A stretch of 64,000 nucleotides of DNA, from NCBI GenBank assembly GCA_037903355.1, contig JBAJFE010000004.1, forward strand, positions 2,914,001 to 2,978,000, given 5' to 3'. Below are positions 35-37,099 of the stretch, piece after piece. This DNA comes from Trichuris trichiura (taxonomy: Eukaryota > Nematoda > Enoplea > Trichinellida > Trichuridae). The first letter of the stretch is position 1; every line of letters starts with the position of its first letter. The notes beneath the pieces were generated by a model that saw only the letters and a list, made by a program, of their open reading frames with translations, did no database searches and had not been told where the DNA came from. The position numbers and the translations under genes were made by a program.

Positions 35-1564
35 ATGACGAAGAAATCTATTGCCACGATAGCAATTAATATACTAATTGTTTCAACTTATGTGGAAGAA
101 ATCGTGAAAGCCCACTATATTTTGTTCATGCCGGCTCTGACCGTCCCCAGCCATGTTAAATCAATGCTTCCACTCGCAAGAGCGCTACGGAAGGACGGAC
201 ACTCCATCTCTCTGGCGCAGTACTACTCACAGGAAATGGAGAAACTGTCTGAAAATAATGTGGAATTCATTTACCTTTCTACTTACGGAGAAGACTTCAT
301 GGATGAAAAATTTGATAATTCGGTTTGGCGTGTGAAAACAGCGATCCCATGGGAAAGCTTAATGTCTGGGTGGGCAGCCGGAGAGATCTGCCGTCTTTCA
401 TGGAATGATGACAACAATACCAACTTTTATGCCGACCTCACGGCAGGTAAATGGGATTTGCTGATCATAGACAATTTATTTCAACCTTGCGGAATGGTTC
501 TGTCAACTGCATCCAAAAATTTGACTTGGGTTGATTATTCTACCACACACATGATGAAGTTGCCAAGAGCATTCAGAGGCGTTCAGCTATCACCTTCTGT
601 TGACATAAGTGCGAACGCAGATGTGTATGAACCTAAACGTTTTGGAAGCCGACTAATGAGCCTCCTAAACTGCATAGAAGAGCTGGCCTTTTGGGTTCTT
701 ATAAACACTCTAATGGAGACCCGAGCGGAAGGCATACCGATTGGAAAATGGCGTGTACAAGATTTCTACACAAACGGAGTATATTCCATAGGATCACTGC
801 CGGCTATTCTAGATGTTCCCCTTCCGCAAACAGCTGACACTTTTGTAGTAGATTATGAATGCCCAAAGCCTGCTAAACTTAGCGGGGAGTATCTGCAATT
901 CGTTGAAGACCCCCTATCAAAAGGGACAATTGTTTTGTCATTTGGTCACTTTGCTGATTGGAAAGCAGCGCCAGCAGCAACGATTCAAGCAGTTTCCTCT
1001 GCATTTGAAAATTTACAGCAATATCGCATTATTTGGCAGTTCAATGGAGACCTGAGCGTGGTAACCAACAGATCGCACGTTAAAATCGAAAGCTGGGTTC
1101 CACTAGCGGCAATACTGCAACACCCAAAAACAGCAGTATTCATCACGCATACTGGAATTAAAAGCTTTCTCGAAGCCGTGTGCTTTGCAACACCAGTTGT
1201 TGCTGTGCCTTTGTTTGCTGATCAACCAAGGTATTCCATGCTCGCCTCAATGCATGGCTTTGGTATTAGGCTGGACAAGACGAATTTAGCCAAGGAGGCG
1301 CTCTACAATACGATCGTCACAGTTGCAGAGAATCGCAAATACAAAGAACGAATTACTAAGTTCAGCGGAATGATTTCCGACCGAATTATTGATGCTACCT
1401 CGAATGGAAAGTTTTGGATCAATTTTTATCTACGGCATCCGAGCAGCGTCAATCGCATGAGACTCAAAGGAACCATGCTGAATAGCTTTACTTGCAGCTG
1501 TTATGATGTCTTTACACTTTTATGCATTCTGCTTTTCAGTTTACGCTCAGCAATTGATAGCTAA
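35..1564 (+). CDS. UDP-glucuronosyltransferase 1 of tandem array (UGT1), intronless
   Basis: Predicted 509-residue membrane UGT, which would transfer a sugar from a UDP-sugar to small lipophilic acceptors in the ER lumen. An N-terminal hydrophobic signal segment (about residues 6-26) leads into ILFMPAL..PSHVKSM, where the His is in the place of the catalytic His of the family; DLLIIDNLFQPCG supplies the partner Asp region. The donor-binding signature near residues 350-395 reads W-VPL-AILQHPKT-FITHTG-EAVCFATPVV-PLFADQ. The first Gly of the usual THGG is Thr. The C-terminus ends in one membrane helix with almost no cytosolic tail. The ATG at 35 is the only sensible start: a 2-bp difference from UGT2 upstream puts a stop (TAA at 33-35) in the longer frame. 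There are no introns. Family assignment is secure; substrate unknown. Confidence 0.93.
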   Translation: MTKKSIATIAINILIVSTYVEEIVKAHYILFMPALTVPSHVKSMLPLARALRKDGHSISLAQYYSQEMEKLSENNVEFIYLSTYGEDFMDEKFDNSVWRVKTAIPWESLMSGWAAGEICRLSWNDDNNTNFYADLTAGKWDLLIIDNLFQPCGMVLSTASKNLTWVDYSTTHMMKLPRAFRGVQLSPSVDISANADVYEPKRFGSRLMSLLNCIEELAFWVLINTLMETRAEGIPIGKWRVQDFYTNGVYSIGSLPAILDVPLPQTADTFVVDYECPKPAKLSGEYLQFVEDPLSKGTIVLSFGHFADWKAAPAATIQAVSSAFENLQQYRIIWQFNGDLSVVTNRSHVKIESWVPLAAILQHPKTAVFITHTGIKSFLEAVCFATPVVAVPLFADQPRYSMLASMHGFGIRLDKTNLAKEALYNTIVTVAENRKYKERITKFSGMISDRIIDATSNGKFWINFYLRHPSSVNRMRLKGTMLNSFTCSCYDVFTLLCILLFSLRSAIDS

Positions 1565-1721
1565 CCCCATTTTTAATGAAAAAGTAATAACGCTCTCGTG
1601 CTGGAAGTGAGTACCACTACTTCCTAGGCTATCCATACTTCAGTATACAGACGGAACCGGCTTTTTTGATGGAACAGAGCGTTGCATGCACGGCCCATTG
1701 ATTTATGCATCAGAAATTGTT

Positions 1722-3803
1722 TTGATAATGAACTGTCTTTATTACGGAGTGAACGTCCCGTTAAATATACAATAACCTTAAATCTGCGGATCTTTCAAGT
1801 CAATCGTGACCCGTCTTCAGCGGTCTTAAAATAAATTTAATTTGCGAAGCCAGGTCAACCTTCAATCGCTTTTGACGATTTAAAACGAGTGTTTTAAAGT
1901 TTTCTGTTGGAGGTTTCTTCTCTGTCTGTCAGCTGCTACCTCTCTTGTTCCGTATAGCTTGCAGTTTTTTTTGTGTGTACCTTTTGATTTATTTTTCAAA
2001 TTTCTTCCATCGTTAGTTCACGTTTTCCATCCATTTTTTCATTTATGTTCCATGTTTGTGAATTTGTTTTCTGTTCGTTCCAAGTACTATGTAGTTTTAT
2101 CCATTTCTCGATTGTTTCATATTTGTTAATGACTTGTTTCTTTACTTGTTTCAGGTGCTCCTTGTGTGTCATCCATTTAGTGAACGGCAGTTGTAGCGCG
2201 TGGCAATATTTGTCCATAGTTCACTTATATTCGCCCCTTGTTCGCGGTTTTAAGTCACAGTGTGTCTAACGTAAAAGGCCTCTTTAAGTCTTCGTAAGCG
2301 TAGATTACTTTCATACGACCTCTGGTTGCAAAGGTTAGTCGCAATGTGCCGCGTGTTCCACTACAGTGGAAGCTTGTATCGCTTTTTCCATGGTAACCCT
2401 TGGATTCAACATTCGTCTTCCACGATGAGCTATTGGAACGCCATTATTATGGAGATTGTGTTTTGCGTTGTTGTAACTGTTAAGCTTCTTGATATGTTCG
2501 TTGAATCTGTAAACTCCTGAACAAGTACATTCGATCGCGTAGACTAGGCCTGTTTTTTCGTTTGTTGGAATTTTCGTTTTGTCCGAACGAAAAATCGATT
2601 TCAGATTGGGGAAATTCTTGAAGAAGACTCTGAAACCTAATTTTCTTTCTAACTGGACCTTATTGCCTAGTCCTACCACATAGGGGATAACCAAACATAG
2701 ATTGTGTAAAGTATTTGGTTCAGGAGACACGTTTGCGGAGCTCGTACTTGAACATTTGGTCAATAAAAGAATCAGCATAATCGTTTTTGTAGATCTTTCT
2801 AATATAGTTAAGTTTTGGCAGAAGATATTCGGGATTGCGTAAATTGATAGCTCTATCAATCATTCCAGAAAGGATTCCACGCATTACAAATCGTAGATGA
2901 TGCGATGAGAAGTTGAGGTATTAGTCCGTGTGTGTGGGTTTTCTATAAACTCTGGTTTTAAGCCCTTCGTTTGTGCGAATAATTAAGGCGTCTAGAAAAG
3001 GAAGGGTTTTATTTTCTTCTTTTTCCATTGCGAAGACAATTTGGTTTGGGCGCATGTTGTTGAGGAATTTTTCCAACTTTAATAATTTCAAAGATGGCAT
3101 CTACATACCTTTTAAAAAGGTGCGGGCACTTTGTCTGTCTACAGTTTCGAAAATTTGTCTTTCAAAGCAAAAATTTCTGCTAGGACAGGAGATAAAGAGC
3201 TGCCCATTGGAACTCCGCTGGATTGTTTGTAGAATTTGTTATCAAAAGTGAAATGATTGCCTTCCTAAACGCAGAAAGACACTATCTTGATGATATGAAA
3301 AGGATTTAATTTAGTTCTGCTGAGATTTGCATCCGCATTGAGGAGATTGTATACTATCGAGAATATCTGAAATTGGAATGCTGGGGAATAATTCTTTCAC
3401 GCTGTAACTAACTAGAATCTCATCTAATTCTAAGTAGTAGTTTCGTATTTCGTTGACGAGCGTTTTCATATTTTTGACAAAGGACGGTTTTTTACCAGTT
3501 AGAGGTTTGATGATCTTTTTTAAATATCGACTGAATTCACTTGTGGTACTGTTAATTGTGGAGATTATTGGTCTTAGTGGGACACCTAGTTTCTGTACTT
3601 TTGCAAGACCATAGAGCTCAGAGGGTCTGAAGCTCGATGCAAACTTAAAATGTGTTGCCAATTTGGTGATTTCAGGTTCTTTGGTCTCTGTGGCGTATGT
3701 GATGAGAAGAAATCAAAAAGTTTTTCGGGAAGCCCCTGTAGGGCCAGTGGGTAAATGTGTATAATTGCTGGTGTTTAAGATAGCTGCCATCTTTTCAATG
3801 TTG
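1722..3803 (-). mobile_element. Degenerate, 5'-truncated Penelope-like retroelement
   Basis: On the minus strand, broken frames run RT then GIY-YIG, the order of Penelope-like elements (PLEs). Visible RT pieces are SELYGLAKVQK, VPLRPIIS, IIKPLTGKKPSFVKNM (3661-3311), GVPMGSSLSPVLAE (about 3215-3175), RYVDAIF (about 3110-3090; catalytic YVDD changed to YVDA) and RVYRKPTHTD (about 2960-2930). The C-terminal part (2859-2335) contains IPYVVGLG, KLGFRVFF, GLVYAIECTCSGVY and TVVEHAAH, a GIY-YIG nuclease whose YIG strand is deleted. Several frameshifts and stops show it is dead. The insert is flanked by an 11-bp direct repeat CAGAAATTGTT (1711-1721 and 3804-3814), and the UGT2 flank has the uninterrupted site. 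The left (3') end carries the TTACGGA...CCCGTT motif shared with nearby foldback elements. Confidence 0.88.
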
Positions 3804-4376
3804 CAGAAATTGTTGCATGTTTTTAAATAACATTGCGCAAGTCAGTGTACTTAAAAGTGAAAGACCTTTTAGCACTAAAAGATGCATTCTAAATGCTAGG
3901 TAAACAGCACAGCCTAACAGAAGTGATTATTATGTTTATGTAACATCAACAAATGCTGCCCATTAAATTCTTATTAATTTCCTGCCGCGCAGCTTCTGAG
4001 ACCTATTCTGCCGAGCGAAAACCTACCTTCTTACTGCTATAAGCCATAGTACAGAAAAAATTAGAATCGATTTTCCAGAGCTTAGACGGACCTGCAGTCA
4101 GCTCACTGTTGTGCGCTTTCTCTACTGATAATAGCACTCATCAGCGACTGACATAAAACTAAAAACCGAAACATTGAATGGTCAAAACCTCAACAGTCGT
4201 TCTACCGAATGCACAAAACGACGGATGGTCAAGAAACCGCTGGTCATAAAATCGAACGGTCAAAACGTGGAATAGTCCAAATATTGAAAGCCAAAATACT
4301 TAGTCGAAATTCGGAATACAGTCGACTTTCGTTATTCACAGGGTTCCCTACAGCGCTACTGATCACAGATAAAGAA

Positions 4377-4859
4377 AGGTTTCTTCTAAAGTTTTTCACG
4401 GAATTTTCAACTTGTTGTTTATTTAACGTTTGTTGCAAAAACGTTTATTACGAACCTTTCGCTTCTACCCATGACCCGTCATCAGCGTAATTGCACCGCC
4501 CATCGGGTCGGTCTTTATGGTTGCAAGCCGCTCCATCCGACCAACTTTGGCTGAGACCTCCAGAGTCGCGGAAGGTCGGCTGAACGCACGCTGCACCGTC
4601 CGACTGACTATGCGGCACCGAAACCTCTTGGCTCAAGGCAGGGCTGACGGTGGAGGTCTCCGCCAAAGTTGGTCGGATGGAGCGGCTTGCAACCATAAAG
4701 ACCGACCCGATGGGCGGCGCAGCTACGCTAACGACGGGAAATGAACAGACCCGAAAGCTTCGTAATAAACCTTTTTGCAATAAACGTTAAATAAACAACA
4801 GGTTGAAAATTCCGCGAAAAACAATGGAAGAACAAATGAAAAAACCCGTTATGAAGAAA
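4377..4859. mobile_element. Foldback (inverted-repeat) element A
   Basis: A non-coding element of about 480 bp with long nested inverted repeats. The outer arm from about 4391 (GTTTTTCACGGAATTTTCAA, continuing through TTTATTTAACGTT and TTTATTACGAA) is matched in reverse complement at 4752-4822. An inner arm (TCGGTCTTTATGGTTGCAAG at about 4508, through CCGACCAACTTTGGC) is matched in reverse at 4660-4704. It is absent from the paralogous UGT2 flank (about 8235). A short possible target duplication AAAGAA lies at 4371-4376 and 4860-4865. Both arms contain a CTGATGA/CTAACGA...GAAA(GC) core. Open frames inside are palindromic artefacts. Confidence 0.85.
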
Positions 4860-5184
4860 AAAGAATGGCGTCATTTTTAAAGCAGTACCGGCACATCACT
4901 GCTCGGCAATGACGCGTATTCTAGCGTTCTTGCGTGGCTGTCCAACAGCAATGTTTTAATGTGCGCCAGAAACCGATAAAAGATGGTGCCATTCTTTATC
5001 CCAGTAAACTATGCTATAGGTAATTCGCGTATAAGAAAACCGCGGATAACGGCGGTAGCCTGTATTCAAAATTTCAGCCATTCGAAATTTCTATATTCAG
5101 CATTTTGACTATTCAACTTTTGGTCTTATGACCCAGACCCAGCAGTTATATTCACAGATGCATACATAAGACAATTTTGCGTAT

Positions 5185-5383
5185 CATTAAACTGTCTTTG
5201 TTACGGATCATGTCTCCCATTGGTATGTAAAATGAACGTGAATTCCCCGGAGCTTTCCGGTCGTCACAGATTCGAAAGCTCCGGGGAATTTACGTTCATT
5301 TTACATACCAACGGCACACATGATCCGTAATAAAGACACTTTAATATGAAAACTTACAGCCCCGTACAAAAACATCGCATTTT
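5185..5383. mobile_element. Foldback element B with 13-bp target duplication
   Basis: A 199-bp palindromic element: TTACGGATCATGT...TGAACGTGAATTCCCCGGAGC pairs with GCTCCGGGGAATTTACGTTCA...CATGATCCGTAA. It is flanked by the direct repeat CAATTTTGCGTAT (5172-5184 and 5384-5396), which occurs once (as CAATTTTCCGTAA) in the empty UGT2 flank near 8552. The right end (ATATGAAAACTTACAGCCCC, then GTACAAAAACATC) is nearly identical to the right end of element C at 35432-35675, so they are one family. There is no coding capacity. Confidence 0.88.
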
Positions 5384-5610
5384 CAATTTTGCGTATGGCT
5401 TAAAAAGTAGCCTGATTGCATTAAACTGCGTTCTTTAGACTGCGGCAAGAAACAATACAGTTCGAAAGTTTTAGCTTTCCCTATATGGGAACAGCGCTTC
5501 AGCTATGTTGATTATTCTTTTCTGCCTTTTCCAGCAGAATTTGTTGAAAATATCAATACGAGCTAATAACAAGTTTTAGGTAAGAGAGTTACCAGGACCG
5601 CACGCAGGGC

Positions 5611-6024: not shown

Positions 6025-7554
6025 ATGACGAAGAAACCTATTGGCACGATAGCAATTAATATATTAATTATTTCAACTTATATGGAAGAAATCGTGAAAG
6101 CCAACAATATTTTGTTCATGCCGGCTATCACCGCCCCTAGCCATGTTAAATCAATGCTTCCACTTGCAAAAGCGCTTCGGAAAGACGGACACTCCATCTC
6201 TCTGGCACAGTACTACTCAGAGCAAAAGGAAAAACTGTCTGACGATAATGTCGAATTCATTTACCTTTCTACGTACGGCGAAAGCCTCGTGGATGAAAAA
6301 TTTGCTAATTCGGTTTGGCGTGCGAAAACGGCGATTCCGTGGGGAAACGTAATGACTGGGTGGGCAGCCGGAGAGGTCTGCCGTCGTTCATGGAACGATA
6401 TCTACAATACCAACTTTTATGACCGACTTACGGCAGGTAAGTGGGATTTGCTGATCGTAGACAATTTATTTCAACCCTGCGGAATGATCCTGTCAAGTGC
6501 ATCTAAAAATTTAACATGGATTGATTATTCCACCACACACATTATGAAATTGCCAAGAACATTCAGAGCCGTTCACCTGTCACCTTCTGTTGACATAAGT
6601 GCGAACGCAGAAGTATATGAACCTAAACGTTTTGGAAATCGACTGACGAACCTCCTGAGTTACATAGAAGAGCTCGCTTTTTGGATCCTTCTAAACATTA
6701 TAATGGAGACCCCAGCAGATGGCATACCGACCGGAAAATGGCGTGCACAAGATTTCTATACAAACGGAGTATATTCCATAGGATCACTGCCGACTATTCT
6801 AGATGTACCCCTTCCACAAACAGTTAACACTTTTACAGTGGATTATGAATGTCCAAAGCCTGCTAAACTTAGCAAGGAGTATCTACAATTCGTTGAAGAC
6901 CCCCTATCAAAAGGAACAATTATTTTGTCATTCGGTCACTTTGCTGATTGGAAAGCAGCGCCAGTAGCAACCATTCAGGCAGTTTCCTCTGCATTTGAGA
7001 ATTTACAGCAATATCGCATTATTTGGCAGTTCAATGGAGACCTGAGCGTGGTAAGCAACACATCGCACGTCAGAATACAAACCTGGGTACCACTGGCGGC
7101 AATACTGCAACACCCCAAGACAGTACTATTCATCACGCATGCTGGAATTAAAAGCTTCCTCGAAGCCGTATGCTTTGCAACACCAGTTGTTTCTGTGCCT
7201 TTGTTTGGTGATCAACCCAGGCATTCTATGCTCGCCTCAATACACGGCTTTGGTATTAGGCTGGACAAGACGACTTTAACCAAGGAAGCGCTTTACAATA
7301 CGATCATCGCTGTTGCAGAGAATCGAAAATACAAAGAACGAATTGCTAAGTTCAGAGGAATGATTTCCGACCGAATTATTGATGCCACCTCAAATGGGAA
7401 ATTTTGGATCAATTTTTATCTAAGACACCCGAGCAGCGCCAATCGCATGAGACTCAAAGGAACCATGCTGAATAACTTTACTTACAGCTGTTATGACGTC
7501 TTTGCACTTTTATGCGTTCTGCTTTTCAGTTTACGCTCAGCAGTTGATATCTAA
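6025..7554 (+). CDS. UDP-glucuronosyltransferase 2 of tandem array (UGT2), intronless
   Basis: A 509-residue UGT and the closest paralogue of UGT1, alignable end to end without gaps. It has a signal segment, then NILFMPAI..PSHVKSM with the presumed catalytic His, DLLIVDNLFQPCG, and the donor motif W-VPLAAILQHPKT-FITHAG-EAVCFATPVVSVPLFGDQ; Ala replaces the first Gly of THGG. It ends in a C-terminal membrane helix (YDVFALLCVLLF) and a very short tail without a dilysine retrieval signal. The ATG at 6025 is chosen because the frame extends upstream only through a GTG (6001). The promoter-proximal flank is shared with UGT4, the 3' flank with UGT1. Confidence 0.93.
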   Translation: MTKKPIGTIAINILIISTYMEEIVKANNILFMPAITAPSHVKSMLPLAKALRKDGHSISLAQYYSEQKEKLSDDNVEFIYLSTYGESLVDEKFANSVWRAKTAIPWGNVMTGWAAGEVCRRSWNDIYNTNFYDRLTAGKWDLLIVDNLFQPCGMILSSASKNLTWIDYSTTHIMKLPRTFRAVHLSPSVDISANAEVYEPKRFGNRLTNLLSYIEELAFWILLNIIMETPADGIPTGKWRAQDFYTNGVYSIGSLPTILDVPLPQTVNTFTVDYECPKPAKLSKEYLQFVEDPLSKGTIILSFGHFADWKAAPVATIQAVSSAFENLQQYRIIWQFNGDLSVVSNTSHVRIQTWVPLAAILQHPKTVLFITHAGIKSFLEAVCFATPVVSVPLFGDQPRHSMLASIHGFGIRLDKTTLTKEALYNTIIAVAENRKYKERIAKFRGMISDRIIDATSNGKFWINFYLRHPSSANRMRLKGTMLNNFTYSCYDVFALLCVLLFSLRSAVDI

Positions 7555-8755
7555 CCCCATTTTTGCCAAGCATAACGTCCTTCTGCTGGAAATGAGTAGC
7601 ACTATTTTCTAGACTACCATATTTTAGTATACAGACGTAAGTGGTTTCCTCGATGGAGCAGGGCACTTCTTGCACCGTCCATTAATTTATGCATCAGAAA
7701 TTGTTGCATGTTTTTAGATAACATTGCGCAAGTCAGTGTACTTAAAAGTGAAAGCGACCTTTTGGCACTCAAGGATGCTTTCTAAACGCTGAGTAAGCAG
7801 CACTGCCTAAAGGATGTGATTATTATTTTTATGCAATATCAACGAATACTGCCCATTAAATTCTTATTACGTTTGTGCTACGCAGCTTCTGGGACATATT
7901 CTGCTGAGCGAACACCTACCTTCTTACTGCTGTGTGTCCAAGTATGGAAAAAATTAGAATCGATTTTTCAGAGCTTAGATGGGTCTGCAGTCAGCTCCCT
8001 GCGTGTGCGCTTTCTCTATTGATAAAGGCACCCATCGGTGATTGCCATAAAACTGAGTATCAAAACAGCGAAAGTCGTTCTAGGGAATGCACAAGATACC
8101 GCTGGTCATGGCAACGAACGGTCAAAACTTCAAGTGGTCGAAATATTGAAAGTTCAAATACCGAGTAATCGAAATTTTGAATACAGTTGGCTTTCGTTAT
8201 CTGCGAGGTCCCTACAGCGCCACTGATCCGAGATAAACAGTGGCGTCATCTTTTAATCAGTACCGGTACGTCACTGCTGCACAATGACGCATACTCTTAC
8301 GTTCTTGCATGGCTGCCCAAGAACGACGCACTGTTCTAATCTGTGGCAGTATCCTATAAAAGATGGTGCCCATTCTTTATCCTAGTCAAACCGCGCTATA
8401 GGGAGTTCGGAAATAAGAAGACCGCGGATAGCGACAGTAGCCTGAATTCGAAATTTCAGTCATTCGAAACATTTATTTTCGGCATTTTGACTATTCGACT
8501 TTTGGTCTTATGACCCAGGCCCAGCAGTTATATCCTCAGATGCAGACAAAGGACAATTTTCCGTAAAGCTTAAAAGCAGCTGATTGCGTTAAACTGCGTT
8601 ATTTAGACTGCGGCAAGAAACAGTACAGTTCGAAAGTTTTAGCTTTCCTTATATGGGAACAGCGCTTTAGCGATGTTGAATTATTCTTTTCTGCCTTTTG
8701 CAGGGGAATTTGTTGAAAATATCAATACGAGTTAACAACAAGTTTTAAGTGAGTG
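7555..8755. repeat. UGT2 3' flank, uninterrupted copy of the duplicated block
   Basis: This is the intact counterpart of the UGT1 downstream block, lacking the Penelope-like insert and foldbacks A and B. It is the reference for pre-insertion sequence: CATCAGAAATTGTTGCATG at about 7692, GAGATAAACAGTGGCGTC at about 8231 and GACAATTTTCCGTAAAGC at about 8550 are the empty sites. No gene is recognisable; short frames here are not conserved between the two copies. Confidence 0.8.
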
Positions 8756-9706
8756 AGAGAGTGCAGCGCACAAGAGTCGAAAAAGAGAGAATGAGTGAGC
8801 GCACCAACCAGTAAACAAATGAGGACACACCAGTCAGTTGACGGATGAACAAGTAGCAGTTAAAGTACGATAACAAAACGGTCAACACCGGTACGTATCA
8901 GCTGCGACAAATGTTACTGAGAAGTGAACACAAACGACATTAGCTACGCGGTGCCTGCTGAAATTCTTTCGTTAACCGGCTTATACGGGGTGCACAGTTC
9001 CAGTACTTCAGTATACATATGTATAAACATTTACTTTCGAAGAAGTGATTATATGCCACAGAGGCCGCTATGCGGAACTCGTCCGAAGCCAAAGATACCA
9101 TACCATCAGACCGGAAAGTCCCTTCAGGAATAAACATTTACAGTTTCGCGAATTGTACACCCATATATAGTGATGAAAAAAATTCAGTCAATATGTTCGT
9201 GGGTCGCTGGACGGTAGACGTTTAAATATGGTCTGTTCAGCGGCAGTCGGCGTTGAAAGGGCAATGAACCCTATAGTTAAACATTTACCTCCCAGTTGAG
9301 TAAGCGCTTTAGGATAGCGTCAACCAGATAAGCGGAACCGACACCGGAACGCGTATGCACCACATCTGGGAGGCGCTCGAGAGGCCCAGGAAATTGCCGG
9401 CGCGAAAAAATAGGAAAACTGTGTACTAGACAATCAGCTGAATCTTTCCTTGTCAGCCATGAAAGACAACTCAACAAACACTTCAAACATAGAATAAACA
9501 TTTTGTTAACTACTTTCGCTTTCAAGTGGACCTAGAGACGGTTAAACAGCAACAGGAGTAAACAATTAACAGAAGCGGACACTCGCAAAGCAAGCGCTAG
9601 GAACTGAGCAATGCCTCTGTTTCCTCCTGTAGCAACTAGTTCACTATTCATTTCACACCCGCTGGGCAAAACGATACTTCAGAGCGAAATTTTCTGCGCT
9701 CACAAA
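8756..9706. other. Unique spacer between UGT2 and UGT3
   Basis: Past the end of the duplicated block the sequence is unique. It holds a GA-rich tract (about 8747-8815) and no frame with family signatures. The last part must contain the UGT3 promoter and 5' UTR. An in-frame ATG at 9611 would add 32 residues to UGT3, but those residues are not signal-peptide-like and are absent from the paralogues, so I treat them as untranslated. Confidence 0.5.
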
Positions 9707-11233: not shown

Positions 11234-11826
11234 CAAGAGTTTGGAAAATATAATGACTTCCTTAAAAGCGACACCTGGAGAGCAAGCGCCATGTCTTTTG
11301 CGTCAACGCCATCCTAATTACCCGCAAAATACTTCTGAAGAGCAGCTCCATTGCCAATTGCATGGTACGGTGAGTTTTTCTTTTACTCAAATTGGATTTA
11401 TCTGTAGCATAGACTTCATTACCCTATTCAATCCTACACAAGACTAATGTGACGTTTAAAGAAGCGGAAGAAAAGCATTGAGGTACTACTTATGAAATGA
11501 AATTCATTGCTCAGTTCTGAGCTTAAAGCGTTTTGTAAACGGTCTGTATTTCTTCACATGAGGGGTTTTATGAACAGCGGAGTAATATGTTCCAGTTGAA
11601 AGGCAGGAATGCTTGAGGGCTTGCTATCACCGCTTCGTATTAATTGTCTACTCATTCGCAGAAAGGATTTTGTCTGATTTGACTACACGCTCTAATAAGA
11701 AACGGATGGATGTAAGCTGTGGGTAGTGATTGTTCAATGGAACAATTTCAATTGAAAACAGAATGTCAACTTGCATCAACTTTCTTGTTGCTTTGAAAAC
11801 ATAGTGTCTCCCAACGGGTGTGTGAA
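11234..11826. other. Spacer downstream of UGT3
   Basis: Presumed UGT3 3' UTR and unique sequence. No frame with recognisable features. It ends at the start of foldback element D. Confidence 0.5.
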
Positions 11827-12068
11827 ACAACATTAAAGTACGGAAAAGCAATCCGTTCAACGTTTTACTAATATTGCGAAGCTTTCAGAGAACTCTTGTC
11901 CTAGTCTTCAGGGCATGAAAGTGAGAGAGAGATGCCAGGTAAATAAGGCCATGCCATGGTTCTCTCTGTCATTTTCATGCGCTGAAAACGGGGACAGGAG
12001 TTCCCCGAAAGCTTCGCAATAGTAGCAAAACGTTGAACGGGTTGCTTTTCCGTACCTTAGTGTTGTAA
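11827..12068. mobile_element. Foldback element D
   Basis: A near-complete 240-bp palindrome. The left arm from ACAACATTAAAGTACGGAAA, through CCGTTCAACGTTTT, ATTGCGAAGCTTTC and on to GGCATGAAAGTGAGAGAG, is matched in reverse complement by the right arm ending CGTACCTTAGTGTTGT; the loop is about 20 bp (near 11935-11955). The layout TACGGAA...CCCGTT...AATA...CGAAAGC matches elements A-C. The right arm holds CTGAAAA followed by a GGGGA/TTCCCC stem and GAAAGC (11982-12012). No target duplication was identified. Confidence 0.75.
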
Positions 12069-13149
12069 CTTTCTTATGTAGGTTCACTGTCGCAATACGA
12101 AGCTCGTGAAGTCGAAAAATATCAATACGTGATTTAACAACAGGAAACTGATAGCTACAGAAACGTCCTCCGTGAGCACAACTGCTGGTAGGAAACAGAA
12201 CTTCATTCTTGAAACAAGTTTTCAAGAACAAAAATCTACAGTGCAGCTGCTCCGCGGCTGCAAAAAAGTCAGATGAATGGTACTTGTGCCCATTGTAGAC
12301 GAGTCCGGAAAATTATTCCAAAGTGCACTGATGCTTCTCACCAACCGTTTCAAGCATCCCCGCTTATTGCGGACGGACAGAAGTTTCCAGTGATCTTCAT
12401 GTTTAAACAATTCGTTCCGTCAAAAATGCCCAGTGAATTCGCTCAGAAAATTTAGCCTCTGCTCTTTCCTTTGGAACTCCGTAGCTGTACTCTTTACCCT
12501 AAAAGCTTCTGAAGCCTCGATACTTCAGTGTATGGGTGCGAAGAACAACTGAAGAGGCGCGTTAAATACTATCGCGAAAAGCAATTGAGCAAACCTTGCT
12601 GCGTTGACGCCGCTAAACATGAACTGACCGTCTGAGTTAAATCGTCCTGCCATTTTATAGGAAGCAGAATTTTGAAAGTTTGAACACTCCCGCGCTCGCT
12701 GACGCAGACTGTCGACCGCCCGCTATGTAACTGATAGGACTGCTATGTACAATTGAAACTCTGCGAATGAAAGAAGCAGCGTTAGCAAAGTTTGAATAAG
12801 CAGGAATGGAAAGGTGATTTAGTTAATACGAAAACCACTATCAAAGTTTGCGGTATTACAGCTTAAACTAGAAGCGATGAGCTCTTATGTCATACTATAA
12901 TAGTTCTTATTTGGCTGTTAACCATTCAAAATATACAATTTTGTTGAAGGTGTGCAGGTTCTTTTCGTGCCTCAGAAAGATCAGACCCATTGTGAACTTA
13001 CGTGTTTTATCCATAAAGGAGTGGAACCGACATTGTTTGGTCTTCAGCGGGCATGCTCAACACAGACATGAGTAGACGCATAATGTCAACTATGCTTTTC
13101 CTAGTAACGTTCAACTAGGCCAGCTGCGTGTAGGCAACCGCTAAGTACT

Positions 13150-32722: not shown

Positions 32723-35431
32723 AACTAAGCTTTGGTGCAACCGCTTTTCGTTTCGTCCGTGTTCTGGCAAAGTTAAGCTTTTGTTGTGCTAACAGCCTAA
32801 TAGCTTAGCTTGTCGAACAAATTGCTTCGCATTTCACTAAGAATTGAAAGGGTAAAACGTAAAGCTGAGTTTTATCTTTGCGCAGAAGTTCGGTTCGACA
32901 TACTCACTTATTTAACTGTTCCACTATTGTTGTTATGTACAGCATGAAAGTGTAAGAGTATCAATGTTGATACACTGAAAGTTTTGCTTTCTTTGGCCAG
33001 ATTAGTTAAGCTTCGTTTCAGATAAAAATTTGTTTTATTGCAATGTACAGATATTGCATCACAGTGGTACTTATCCTCACGAGAAATGCACATCAGTTTG
33101 GCATGATGTTGACATAGTCTTTTTTCTACATTATATTTTGGCTAGCCAGTTCAACTGGCTTACCTGTTCAACTTCATTTAATATTTATTAGCATTTCTTT
33201 TTAACTGAACTGATAGAATGTCACGCTGGCATGGCTTTTGGTTCTTCGTTTGCCGTCTTACTTTCAAAATGCGGCTGCGTATGTTCGCTTCATCATTCTA
33301 TTTCAGCACGTGTCCTAAAATACGTGTGCATGTGCTCATACGGCCTTTAAAATTAAGCTGCTTTATTCAATAATAATTTGGAAATTTAAATAACGTTTTT
33401 GAGAATGTAAAATCTTTAGCCATGAAAGCCCCAGAGGCGGAGGGTTGTTTCCAAACGCAGTTGTATTGCAATAAGCTTATCTTGTTCAATAGTTGCAGAA
33501 CAATTTTCCCGCTTTTCCTGCGTTGGCAAAAAACATTTAATTTGTGTGCCTTGTAGAAACTGCCACGAAAACGGTTTCTGCGCGTTATTCCTACGCAAGT
33601 CGGCTGTATCTACCAAGTGTAAATATAAACTTGTTTTCCAGTTGGCATATGTTCGTGTCTACAAAACAGGTCTTATAGCAGAATTATTTTTGAGAATTAT
33701 AGCCCTTTAGCGGCAAGTGGGATTGTGTTTTCATAAGAAGGCATTTTACTTATTGTACATTTTGGGAATTGCCCCATTTCGCCTTCAGCAAAGTCGAGTA
33801 GGCTGCTTTCATAGTTTAAAAGATTATTTGCGTACGGGCAATGAAAATAAGGTTCATATTTTTAATGAAGAACTTGTTTCGTTTCATGATTCCAAGTATG
33901 TTCACTTTTGTTACAATAGGTCTACATAAATTTTTCTCTGATTTCTTGCCCTCACCTACGTGCAATATTAATGATTTTTTGCATTATTAACACTAAAGGT
34001 GAAGGAAAAGCAGTATCTGCATATTTTAGAAAGAAAATTGCTTCAGGAAGTGCATTTAATTTAAAGTACGGCTTTTGACATACGTAGCAGACTATCTAGT
34101 ACACCTGTTTGGCTGCCCAAAGTAAGTTTCTGTTTTGTTTGCTTCATCTCAGAACGAGTTAACATATTTTCTTCTAACTGTGCGTTAGTGCAGTGGTGAA
34201 TTAATAGGCTGCAATCAGCGGCTTTAGCCTTCTACAAGCGATTTCAACTTTACGAAATGGCTCAAAGCATATTTACATAATTTATTCCAATCATTTCCAG
34301 TGTGTTGCCTGTTTGACCTAATGATTATAAAGTTGCAGTGTTCTGCAAGACAGTAGCTTGCACGAGCTGTTTTAACGAAGTATACGAATTCTGGTCAAGC
34401 CTGCGTTCTTAACAGTCAAGAATGCCGTAAGAACATGCAAATTTTGGAATTATTCTTTGCTTCACGCGGTTGCAACCTTCGCCTCTTTTAAATATCATGG
34501 AGCTTGTTAATGTCGTTTATTCATTTCTGAGTAAGCAAAAATATTTCCACACATTCGTTTCCAGACTTTTCAGCTCTAATTTTTTTGGGTATTTATTATG
34601 CTCACATGCCTAACATTCCAGTAATAACAGTGCCTTCAAATTGCTTCATTACCGAAGCGGATTTCTAAGTTTTATTACGGCAGATCGACCAGCCTAAACC
34701 AGATTAGTCTTATTCAGATGCTGTAGTTTGTGCTCAGAAAAAAATACATAATTCCTAACGCGCTTCAAGGACGGGAAGAGCGTTGGCAATGAAGTATTTT
34801 CCAATAATTTGTCATAGACAAGCAACAAAGACCTAATTAAGTGCAGAAGAGCTTACAGGCGAGCAACCTTGTTTAGCCTATTATGGCAAAGCAAACATTT
34901 CATGAAACTTTTATGGCTCATCAATAAGTCAACAGGCGAACCTATAATTCATCCGTTAGTCTGGATGACTAAAAAGTCAATACTTTTGCGAACATAATCT
35001 ATCACTTACTTTCATCCATTCTTTGGTTGTATGCTCACCTGCCTACCTGTAACCGCCAATGAATGCTTACGTTGGCCATGGATGCGTTCAAAGGCTTCCA
35101 AGCGGCAAGTGCTTACTATGGGTGGCAGCGAGGCTTCAAAAACCGACACGGTTGCGTAGAAACGGCAGCGCGCGCACGTCATTCAAGCAACAGCGTATAA
35201 ATATTTTATAAGTGTTAGGAAATAAATGCGTCTATCCAATCAATATCTACGGTAACATTAATTGCCTTTATATGATTTCACGGCACAAGAAATAGGTTTT
35301 ATGCCAGCTGTAACACGATCTAGCGTGCACTTTACAGTACGCGTATCCGAACGAGTGTTCGCTGTTCGTAACTTGTCTTTTTGGCTTTAACGGATTGGAC
35401 GAATTTTCATTTGACAAGCGAGTCCACTTTT

Positions 35432-35675
35432 AAATATCTTTATTACGGATCCAATGTCCCGTTGATATGTACAATAAACGAAAAGTTTTTCTCTCCGGAG
35501 TTTTCGGGTCAAATGATGTGTGTCCACACATCATTTGACCGCTGAAGACGGGTCGCGACAGACCTGAAAGCTTCGGAGAGAAAAACTTTTCGTTTATTGT
35601 ACATATCAACGGGACATTGGATCCGTAATAAAGATATTCAAATATGAAAACTTATAGTCCCGTACAAAAACATCA
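35432..35675. mobile_element. Foldback element C with 17-bp target duplication
   Basis: A 244-bp palindrome: CTTTATTACGGATCCAATGT, then CCCGTTGATATGTACAATAA at left, with the exact mirror (TTATTGTACATATCAACGGG, then ACATTGGATCCGTAATAAAG) at right. Direct repeats CAAGCGAGTCCACTTTT (35415-35431) and CAAGCGAGTCTACTTTT (35676-35692) differ at one base. The right tail ATATGAAAACTTATAGTCCC, then GTACAAAAACATC, matches element B. Inside the right arm: CTGAAGA (35542-35548), a GGGTC/GACCT stem and GAAAGC. Confidence 0.9.
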
Positions 35676-36613
35676 CAAGCGAGTCTACTTTTCGAAATTC
35701 AGTCAAAGAAGAGCCCAGTACTTCAGCATGCAGTTGACAGCTACTGCAGTTTTTTGCGCACATAATTTATGAAATACTTAAGAATTCATTCAGTAGCTCT
35801 TGTAGCTTGTTAATTCATTGAAATATAACGCATACGAATGCTTATCCTTTCAAATTTGACTTGCTCTCATATTCTTATGCGTCGTTAGATTCGTGTCAGC
35901 ATCTTTGCTTGCTTAAAAGCGTCAAGTTCTTCACGCTAACCGCAATTGAAGCCGCAGATGCTCAACTGTTGCTATTAAGTTCATTTAAAGCGAATGTCCA
36001 ATGGCAGGACGTTTTTCAACGGCTAAGAACGATCCTATAGCTTTTCATCGTCCTATTCTTTCGAACTTTAACGCTGAAAAACAACAGTTCTTTTGTGAGC
36101 CCAATTGAGCAAGAATACGTTCTTACGATACCGCGACTGCTGAAGTCAATTTCTTATTAATAGCTTTAACTAACCTTCTGGACTTTTTAATGCCAAGAAA
36201 TTTTCTCAGCCAATTATGCTCACGAGTGTAACTGTTGCTGGTTTTATTAATAATTGAGTAACAGAGTTAAGCTTGCCTTTTTTTTATTCTCATTAGCTGA
36301 CTCCCATTACCGACGCAGCGAGAATGGATTGCACGTGGAAGCAGGCATTTCATACGCCTACGGGAGAAATGCCAACCATGATTCTCGTGAGCAGAATATG
36401 CGTCACAAAAACGTATCAATTTGGAAACGATCTGTTCCATCCGCTCAAACTTATCTGACAAAAAGACTGATAATATCAACTTCACCCGCGCGGGATTGTC
36501 GTAATGGATAGCCTTTTGGTATGCAATTAATCTGCTCAATTAAATGGTCAGTTAGCTTTTTTCTTCATGCATCTGCCTTTTGATAAGCCATCCATTCATG
36601 TTCGTAATAAAAA

Positions 36614-37013
36614 AAACCGCAGGGTGACGTAAGACAAGATTATTTTGAGCGTATGAAAAGACAGCGTGCAATGATAAGAAGTGTGGAAAAGTTTGAGAAA
36701 GTTTGAGCAAGATTTTATTTGTCAGATTCAGCTTTCAAGTGATTGCCTGCCATATTCGCCTCAGTAGTGTCTCACGTGCCAATTCATAGCCGCTATCTTT
36801 TTTATGACCGCAGCAGATGACAAAGAAAGTATCGGCTCTGAATTGACACATAGAGATACTACCGAGGCGAATATGGCAGGCAATCACCTGAAAGTTGAAT
36901 CTAACAAACAAAATCTTGCTCAAATTTTCCCAAACTTTGCCACACTTCTTATCATTGCATGTTGCCTTTTCATATGCTCAAAATAATCTTATCTGACGTC
37001 ACCCGGCGGTTTC
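36614..37013. mobile_element. Foldback element E, a different MITE-like family
   Basis: A 400-bp element with arms of about 190 bp. Ends AAACCGCAGGGTGACGT (36614) and ACGTCACCCGGCGGTTT (to 37013) are inverted, as are GCAAGATTTTATTTGTCAGA / AATCTAACAAACAAAATC and TGCCTGCCATATTCGCCTC / GAGGCGAATATGGCAGGCA. No target duplication is clear. It lacks the TTACGGA...CCCGTT ends of elements A-D, so it is a separate family. Frames on both strands are mirror images, not genes. Confidence 0.85.
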
Positions 37014-37099
37014 ATTTCTCAAAAGGGCTTATCTATATGGGCAGTTGATGCAGTATTTTTGCCGGTATTCCTTGTGGCCATGTAACGAAGTTAACGGCT

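Follow-up and report, generated by a model that had tools for sequence, protein, structure and literature searches.

Among the closest described counterparts of the insertions reported here are the Penelope elements of Adineta vaga, in which, according to the part of the published account on which we draw, an inverted and a direct pLTR are arranged head to head, a tail of ~31 bp on one inverted pLTR reaches into the reading frame, target duplications are short (8–10 bp), palindromes mark the inverted junctions and solo pLTRs occur (PMC3846280). That same part of the account proposes self-priming, with an antisense template, as the cause of pLTR inversion (PMC3846280). The relevant section of a further report likewise describes inverted pLTRs, together with 3' extensions (PMC8969392). 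PAc, a Poseidon-clade Penelope-like element (PLE) protein from Anolis, was characterized in vitro and is described as cleaving and extending both strands of AT-rich targets and starting reverse transcription internally, at the beginning of the reading frame, in agreement with the genomic tail; its hammerhead overlaps the start codon. The portion of that article used here describes tandem copies, makes no mention of foldbacks, and calls steps of PLE integration 'yet to be validated' (PMC11167929). Minimal hammerheads in PLEs have likewise been published, as cited in the consulted part of a report on animal non-LTR retrozymes, which are small non-autonomous elements with type I hammerheads, tandem repeats and circular RNA (PMC7229834).

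We analysed a window of 64,000 nucleotides from the genome of Trichuris trichiura (contig JBAJFE010000004.1, positions 2,914,001 to 2,978,000), in which foldback-shaped insertions lie close to a PLE. A foldback shape is also typical of DNA foldback transposons such as Tetris or Galileo, and a target-site duplication of fixed length is a criterion for MITEs and DNA foldback transposons. Compared with Tetris and Galileo, the insertions studied here lack a fixed duplication, have ends of PLE sequence and carry a tail on one side only. They share with the Adineta elements all the features listed above, but differ in that head-to-head pieces of 100–550 bp lacking an ORF are common in our sample, and in that their duplications centre on 13 bp. 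Their tail corresponds to the internal start described for PAc, whereas their hammerhead-like core lies ~70–110 nt upstream of the start codon, as counted on the letters. Like retrozymes they are small and non-autonomous; unlike them, they consist of inverted pieces with mostly private junctions, and direct tandem repeats were not found.

Results

Foldbacks, a PLE and natural empty sites in the window

The features of the window are collected in Table 1. The arms of foldback B (5186–5257 and 5274–5345) are 92% complementary, and in foldback C the left arm runs to −83 and the right arm begins at −117, relative to the ATG. Over 32 nt, the tails of B and C differ at two positions, in agreement with the near-identical tails noted in the preliminary description, which had also given B a 13-bp duplication, an exact repeat as counted here, and C a duplication of 17 bp with one mismatch; the mismatch stands, and the length is corrected to 18 bp. 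The left-end motif of the foldbacks, said to recur at the 3' end of the window PLE, was located there on the minus strand, and the arms of both B and C match this end. The 3' end of the PLE itself (1722) stops at the position of the start codon, where it reads ATC, and is without a tail; a pLTR reference aligns to 1719–2048 at 71%.

Positions 7390–8757 form a diverged paralogue of 1400–5588, a stretch which we take to derive, probably, from a UDP-glycosyltransferase-like gene. This paralogue is without the PLE, element A and foldback B, and is thus a natural empty-site control for three insertions. Since it holds single-copy sites, B and the PLE are insertions flanked by duplications of 13 and 11 bp, respectively.

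Table 1. Coordinates of insertions, duplications and empty sites in the window
Feature	Position	Strand	Basis or remark
5'-truncated PLE	1722–3803	−	RT-like frames, pLTR match, 11-bp duplication
PLE duplication CAGAAATTGTT	1711–1721; second copy 3804–3814	.	11 bp
Left target-site duplication of foldback B (CAATTTTGCGTAT)	5172–5184	.	13 bp, exact repeat of 5384–5396
Foldback B: inverted pLTR piece, pLTR piece, tail	5185–5383	+	pLTR matches on both strands
Tail of B, 38 nt: PLE start codon and nucleotides after it	5346–5383	+	Tail pattern
Right target-site duplication of foldback B	5384–5396	.	13 bp, copy of CAATTTTGCGTAT
Empty site of PLE in paralogue	7695–7705	.	CAGAAATTGTT present once
Empty site of foldback B in paralogue	near 8554–8565	.	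Single copy, few bases diverged
Foldback taken as element D	11787–12066	+	Palindrome, arms 87%; putative PLE relation
Left target-site duplication of foldback C	35414–35431	.	18 bp, 1 mismatch
Foldback C (sampled as L010)	35432–35674	+	Arms 95% complementary
Hammerhead-like core, right arm of C	35539–35576	+	Place read from letters; covariation across genomic copies
Tail of C, 31 nt	35644–35674	+	
Right target-site duplication of foldback C	35675–35692	.	18 bp, 1 mismatch to left copy

Tail sites across the genome

The tail pattern of B and C, with up to three mismatches, occurs at 246 sites in the 72.7-Mb genome, and the reversed pattern at none. Seventy sites (designated by L numbers) were fetched from the 100 listed, and collapsing two groups with common flanks (six and two loci) left 64 independent sites. 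A duplication score of at least 10.5 was reached by 41 of these, versus 2 of 384 controls with swapped right flanks. Exclusion of L028 and L088, whose duplications are simple repeats, gave the analysed set of 39 closed copies.

The duplications in this set measure 11–18 bp, with a mode of 13. Tabulating them over the tail copies, as had been advised at the outset, thus bears out the long, variable duplications claimed earlier (11–17 bp) and reveals no fixed short duplication of the kind expected of MITEs. Tails are 31–43 nt long, with 38–40 nt in 26/39 copies. An inverted left arm is present in 36 of the 39 copies, all but L087, L102 and L103, and these 36 consist of an antisense pLTR piece, a sense pLTR piece and 31–43 nt of the start of the reading frame, enclosed by the duplications; their outer boundary opposite the tail is at the start codon (−14 to +5). 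L102 is a plain 5'-truncated PLE end, 163 nt of which are 93% identical to the end of the reading frame of the coding element L071. We note that some of the 23 non-closing tail sites also have inverted arms. The sample was chosen by the tail, which is present in every copy by selection, and it is therefore uninformative on tailless insertions such as the window's own PLE.

L103 is a closed insertion of 359 bp whose left ~200 bp match neither the pLTR references nor six PLE loci; this left part is possibly captured foreign sequence.

Coding PLEs end as the foldbacks do

The reverse transcriptase fragment of the window PLE has at least 150 relatives in the same genome (720 first-look candidates, of which 150 were scored), with open frames of up to 901 aa. 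In L071, the tail ATG opens a frame of 901 aa from stop to stop, or 850 aa from the ATG; the element has two direct pLTRs (1839–2054 and 4737–4952, 97%), a 49-nt inverted stub at its 5' end and the duplication GAGTCGAGCATT, and its pLTR extends ~185 nt upstream of the start codon. Because the ATG in the tail of B is the first ATG of the frame in L071, the tail corresponds to the initial ~38 nt of the PLE frame, and the arms consist of pLTR sequence. Three of three PLE proteins carry the Pfam domain RVT_1, and one (L070) has GIY-YIG over the cut-off. Relatives bear PF00078, PF28514 and PF26215, and some PF01541; the nearest named ones belong to Trichuris muris and T. suis (45–65% identity).

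Duplications flank L071 (12 bp), L073 (14 bp), L074 (14 bp) and L069 (10 bp), that of L069 being the weakest of the four (score 10, reached by 3/200 random window pairs). A fifth coding PLE, L072, looks like L069, with a duplication score of 8 that is reached by 21/200 random window pairs. L071 and L073 have the tail at the 3' end, L069 and L074 have it at the inverted 5' side, and in all four the end opposite the tail coincides with the start codon or lies no more than ~7 nt from it. Whether coding PLEs bear the foldback ends was a check proposed with the original observation, and these four do: the ends are the same in kind, either pLTR with tail or ends at the start codon. The foldbacks in turn have the pLTRs, inverted pLTR and one-sided tail of a truncated PLE insertion. 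Since coding PLEs end alike, with similar duplications, the foldbacks are made by the PLE machinery, and the view that they are non-autonomous elements mobilised by it is upheld.

A hammerhead-like core in the pLTR

Ahead of the start codon, the pLTR contains the core CCG-CTGANGA-Y-GGGTC..GACCC-GAAA-GCT(C/T)-CGG. With stem II left free, this pattern matches 657 genomic sites, and its reverse none. In the 75 distinct strings among the matches listed (100 of 657), stem II pairs best when one nucleotide after CTGANGA is omitted (317/375 cells; shuffles ≤262), as compared with none (211; shuffles ≤205) or two (182; shuffles ≤206). All five stem II pairs are present in 40/75 strings, and the additional nucleotide is a C or a T in 71/75. 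The three positions of stem I, examined in 91 distinct copies found by a pattern with fixed core letters, pair in 76, compared with a mean of 43 and a maximum of 54 in shuffles, and occur as CCG/CGG, GCG/CGC and ACG/CGT; stem III would be a single pair.

A search of the window against Rfam gave no gathering-level match. At E ≤ 10, three PLE loci gave 6 matches and 12 foldback loci gave 68, with no hammerhead among either; the 68 are mostly miRNA models fitting the palindromes, all below the gathering score. The base-pairing statistics suggest that the pLTR core is a covarying hammerhead-like motif with one extra nucleotide, mostly a pyrimidine, that Rfam misses. Of 15 cases in which neighbouring cores are no more than 1 kb apart (one contig, among the matches listed), 13 have a head-to-head arrangement. 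The core is also present in the window at 1814–1820, on the minus strand.

Other inverted repeats of the window

Element D had been said to have the layout of B and C. Its palindrome and a candidate 9-bp duplication (11778–11786 and 12067–12075) agree with this, but blastn at E ≤ 1e-3 found no match between D and the pLTR references. A core-like hairpin near 11982 (+), with CTGAAAA replacing CTGANGA, is its putative link to PLEs. Element D has 45 genomic matches. Foldback A (4374–4859) has arms of 187 nt and is missing from the paralogue; a single stretch of 37 nt matches a pLTR reference at 78%, and duplication scores of its flanks never exceed 6. An inverted repeat at 36609–37017 (arms of 165 nt, 89%) was dropped as a candidate PLE foldback, as the pLTR references give no match to it.

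Most junctions are private

In 34 of the 36 inverted copies, the junction position is exactly common to no other sampled copy; one pair, L013 and L037, has an identical position, and in seven further pairs the positions agree to within 3 nt at either side of the junction, five of these seven pairs having been placed with different references. Full-length identity of 85% or more is limited to three of the pairs compared (those with a length ratio of ≥0.75), and the closest, L084 and L098 (94%), have different centres. L025 and L092 hold two inverted pieces in succession, the centre of L091 contains a 77-nt sense piece of the PLE frame (95% to L071 2228–2304), and in L019 a 3' coding end (76%) lies between the inverted and the direct pLTR. 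We note that six loci (L019, L020, L029, L031, L032 and L109) have common right flanks, the insertion being carried in a larger duplicated unit; the shared flanks of L089 and L090 likewise reflect a larger duplication.

Junctions are private in 34/36 copies, some copies hold PLE coding pieces, and the literature already describes PLEs with inverted pLTRs and a tail on one side. The foldbacks therefore appear to be the smallest members of a continuum of PLE insertions that leads from foldbacks of 100 bp to full PLEs, and not a self-propagating family. Each is apparently a separate, stunted PLE insertion.

Discussion

We propose that the foldbacks arise by priming at both ends of the target. The PLE endonuclease would cut the target with a stagger, and each free 3' end would prime reverse transcription on PLE RNA, one starting inside the beginning of the reading frame (about +38–40) and the other at the start codon. 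The resulting pair of antisense cDNAs would then extend toward each other and join head to head, often early, to leave a foldback; a long run of one cDNA would give a full PLE with an inverted pLTR at its other end. Every copy would thus be a new product of PLE protein acting on PLE RNA, and not the descendant of an earlier foldback. On the strength of sequence comparisons in one genome, we consider it probable that the foldbacks are very short PLE insertions made by two-ended target-primed reverse transcription. A wider reading, to which we give a little less than an even chance, is that inverted pLTRs are the signature of the normal PLE reaction, in which both staggered 3' ends would prime on two PLE RNAs (at +38–40 and at the start codon), and that foldbacks result when both cDNAs stop early and are joined. 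Cleavage and extension of both strands, together with an internal start, are the activities described for PAc in the part of the report cited (PMC11167929).

The main competitor is one-ended target priming, after which the 3' end of the cDNA snaps back and copies itself into the inverted arm. This is close to what was proposed for Adineta, the pLTR does contain palindromes and hairpins, and the near-equal arms (within 7 nt) seen in 15/36 copies would be expected from self-priming as well. A left arm copied from its own cDNA, however, could not exceed the right arm, and yet the left arm is longer by at least 8 nt in 11 copies (and shorter in 10). Mocks built under this limit, left arm no longer than right, produced a 'left longer' call in 1/152 cases, in a length test that is itself imperfect (14 near-equal mocks were miscalled unequal and 31/400 mocks were unscorable). 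In L025, moreover, the left arm reaches −288 while the right begins only at −35, and L069 and L074 have their 3' end at the start codon and the tail on the inverted arm. Such switching of the tail between sides, seen among four coding PLEs, points to two primed ends, and a single primed end does not readily explain it. Arms unequal in both directions, together with the side-changing tail, fit two-ended priming better than self-priming, which we regard as unlikely, though with some residual weight. Junction microhomology of at least 4 nt (8/36 copies versus 37/369 mocks) is mildly enriched only. Sequence lost since insertion is another potential source of unequal arms. A further model holds that all copies are first made as full-length head-to-head pLTR dimers of ~550 bp and then lose sequence at their unstable palindromic centres. 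Dimers of full size do exist (L083, 550 bp; L108, 553 bp), and centre deletions would yield private, unequal junctions; against this, the short copies are not older, arm identity showing no fall with shortness (Spearman −0.04, length versus identity; 98.3% in 8 copies of ≤150 bp, 96.8% in 20 copies of >240 bp), 13/36 copies keep spacers of ≤10 nt rather than the asymmetry expected of stabilising deletions, and several events would be needed for L091, L092 and L025. We therefore hold the shortening of dimers to be improbable.

Two-ended priming by PLEs also has to be weighed against three further explanations. The preliminary description inferred a palindromic family mobilised by PLE machinery, and such a non-autonomous family, propagating as a unit and mobilised in trans, would account for the many copies, for their PLE ends and for the junction common to L013 and L037. 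The unshared junctions of the other 34 copies, the PLE coding pieces held in some centres, the scarcity of similar pairs and the different centres of L084 and L098 nevertheless make it a very remote prospect, and the copies that do share flanks belong to larger duplications. Full PLEs could also lose sequence by homologous recombination of their direct pLTRs, in the manner of solo LTRs, and the inverted arm, tail and duplication would all be retained; however, the sense arm starts no more than 150 nt from the start codon in 33/36 copies, so that part of the pLTR is missing, and since a crossover between full pLTRs cannot remove part of one, this origin is scarcely credible. Finally, a DNA-transposon MITE or foldback with terminal inverted repeats would have the palindromic look of these insertions, but with duplications that vary from 11 to 18 bp and a one-sided tail of PLE coding sequence its probability is next to nil.

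How far is the class new? The statement that it is not a described one was too strong, as the part of the Adineta account used here already reports, for Penelope, pLTRs in inverted orientation, a tail on one side, palindromes at the junctions and solo pLTRs (PMC3846280). A literature search on foldback or miniature PLEs, inverted pLTRs with duplications, two-strand priming and nematode PLE hammerheads returned no such class in titles and the opening lines of abstracts. As far as these searches show, what is new is the frequency and smallness, in our sample, of inverted products lacking an ORF, and the end statistics that favour two-ended priming.

These insertions bear on a question of PLE biology, namely how integration is completed and why the pLTR is so frequently inverted. 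With at least 246 tail sites, the genome of T. trichiura offers many minimal insertions with readable ends, a natural data set for separating one-ended from two-ended priming. They also carry a warning for annotation, since repeats of this kind may wrongly be classified as MITEs or as foldback DNA transposons.
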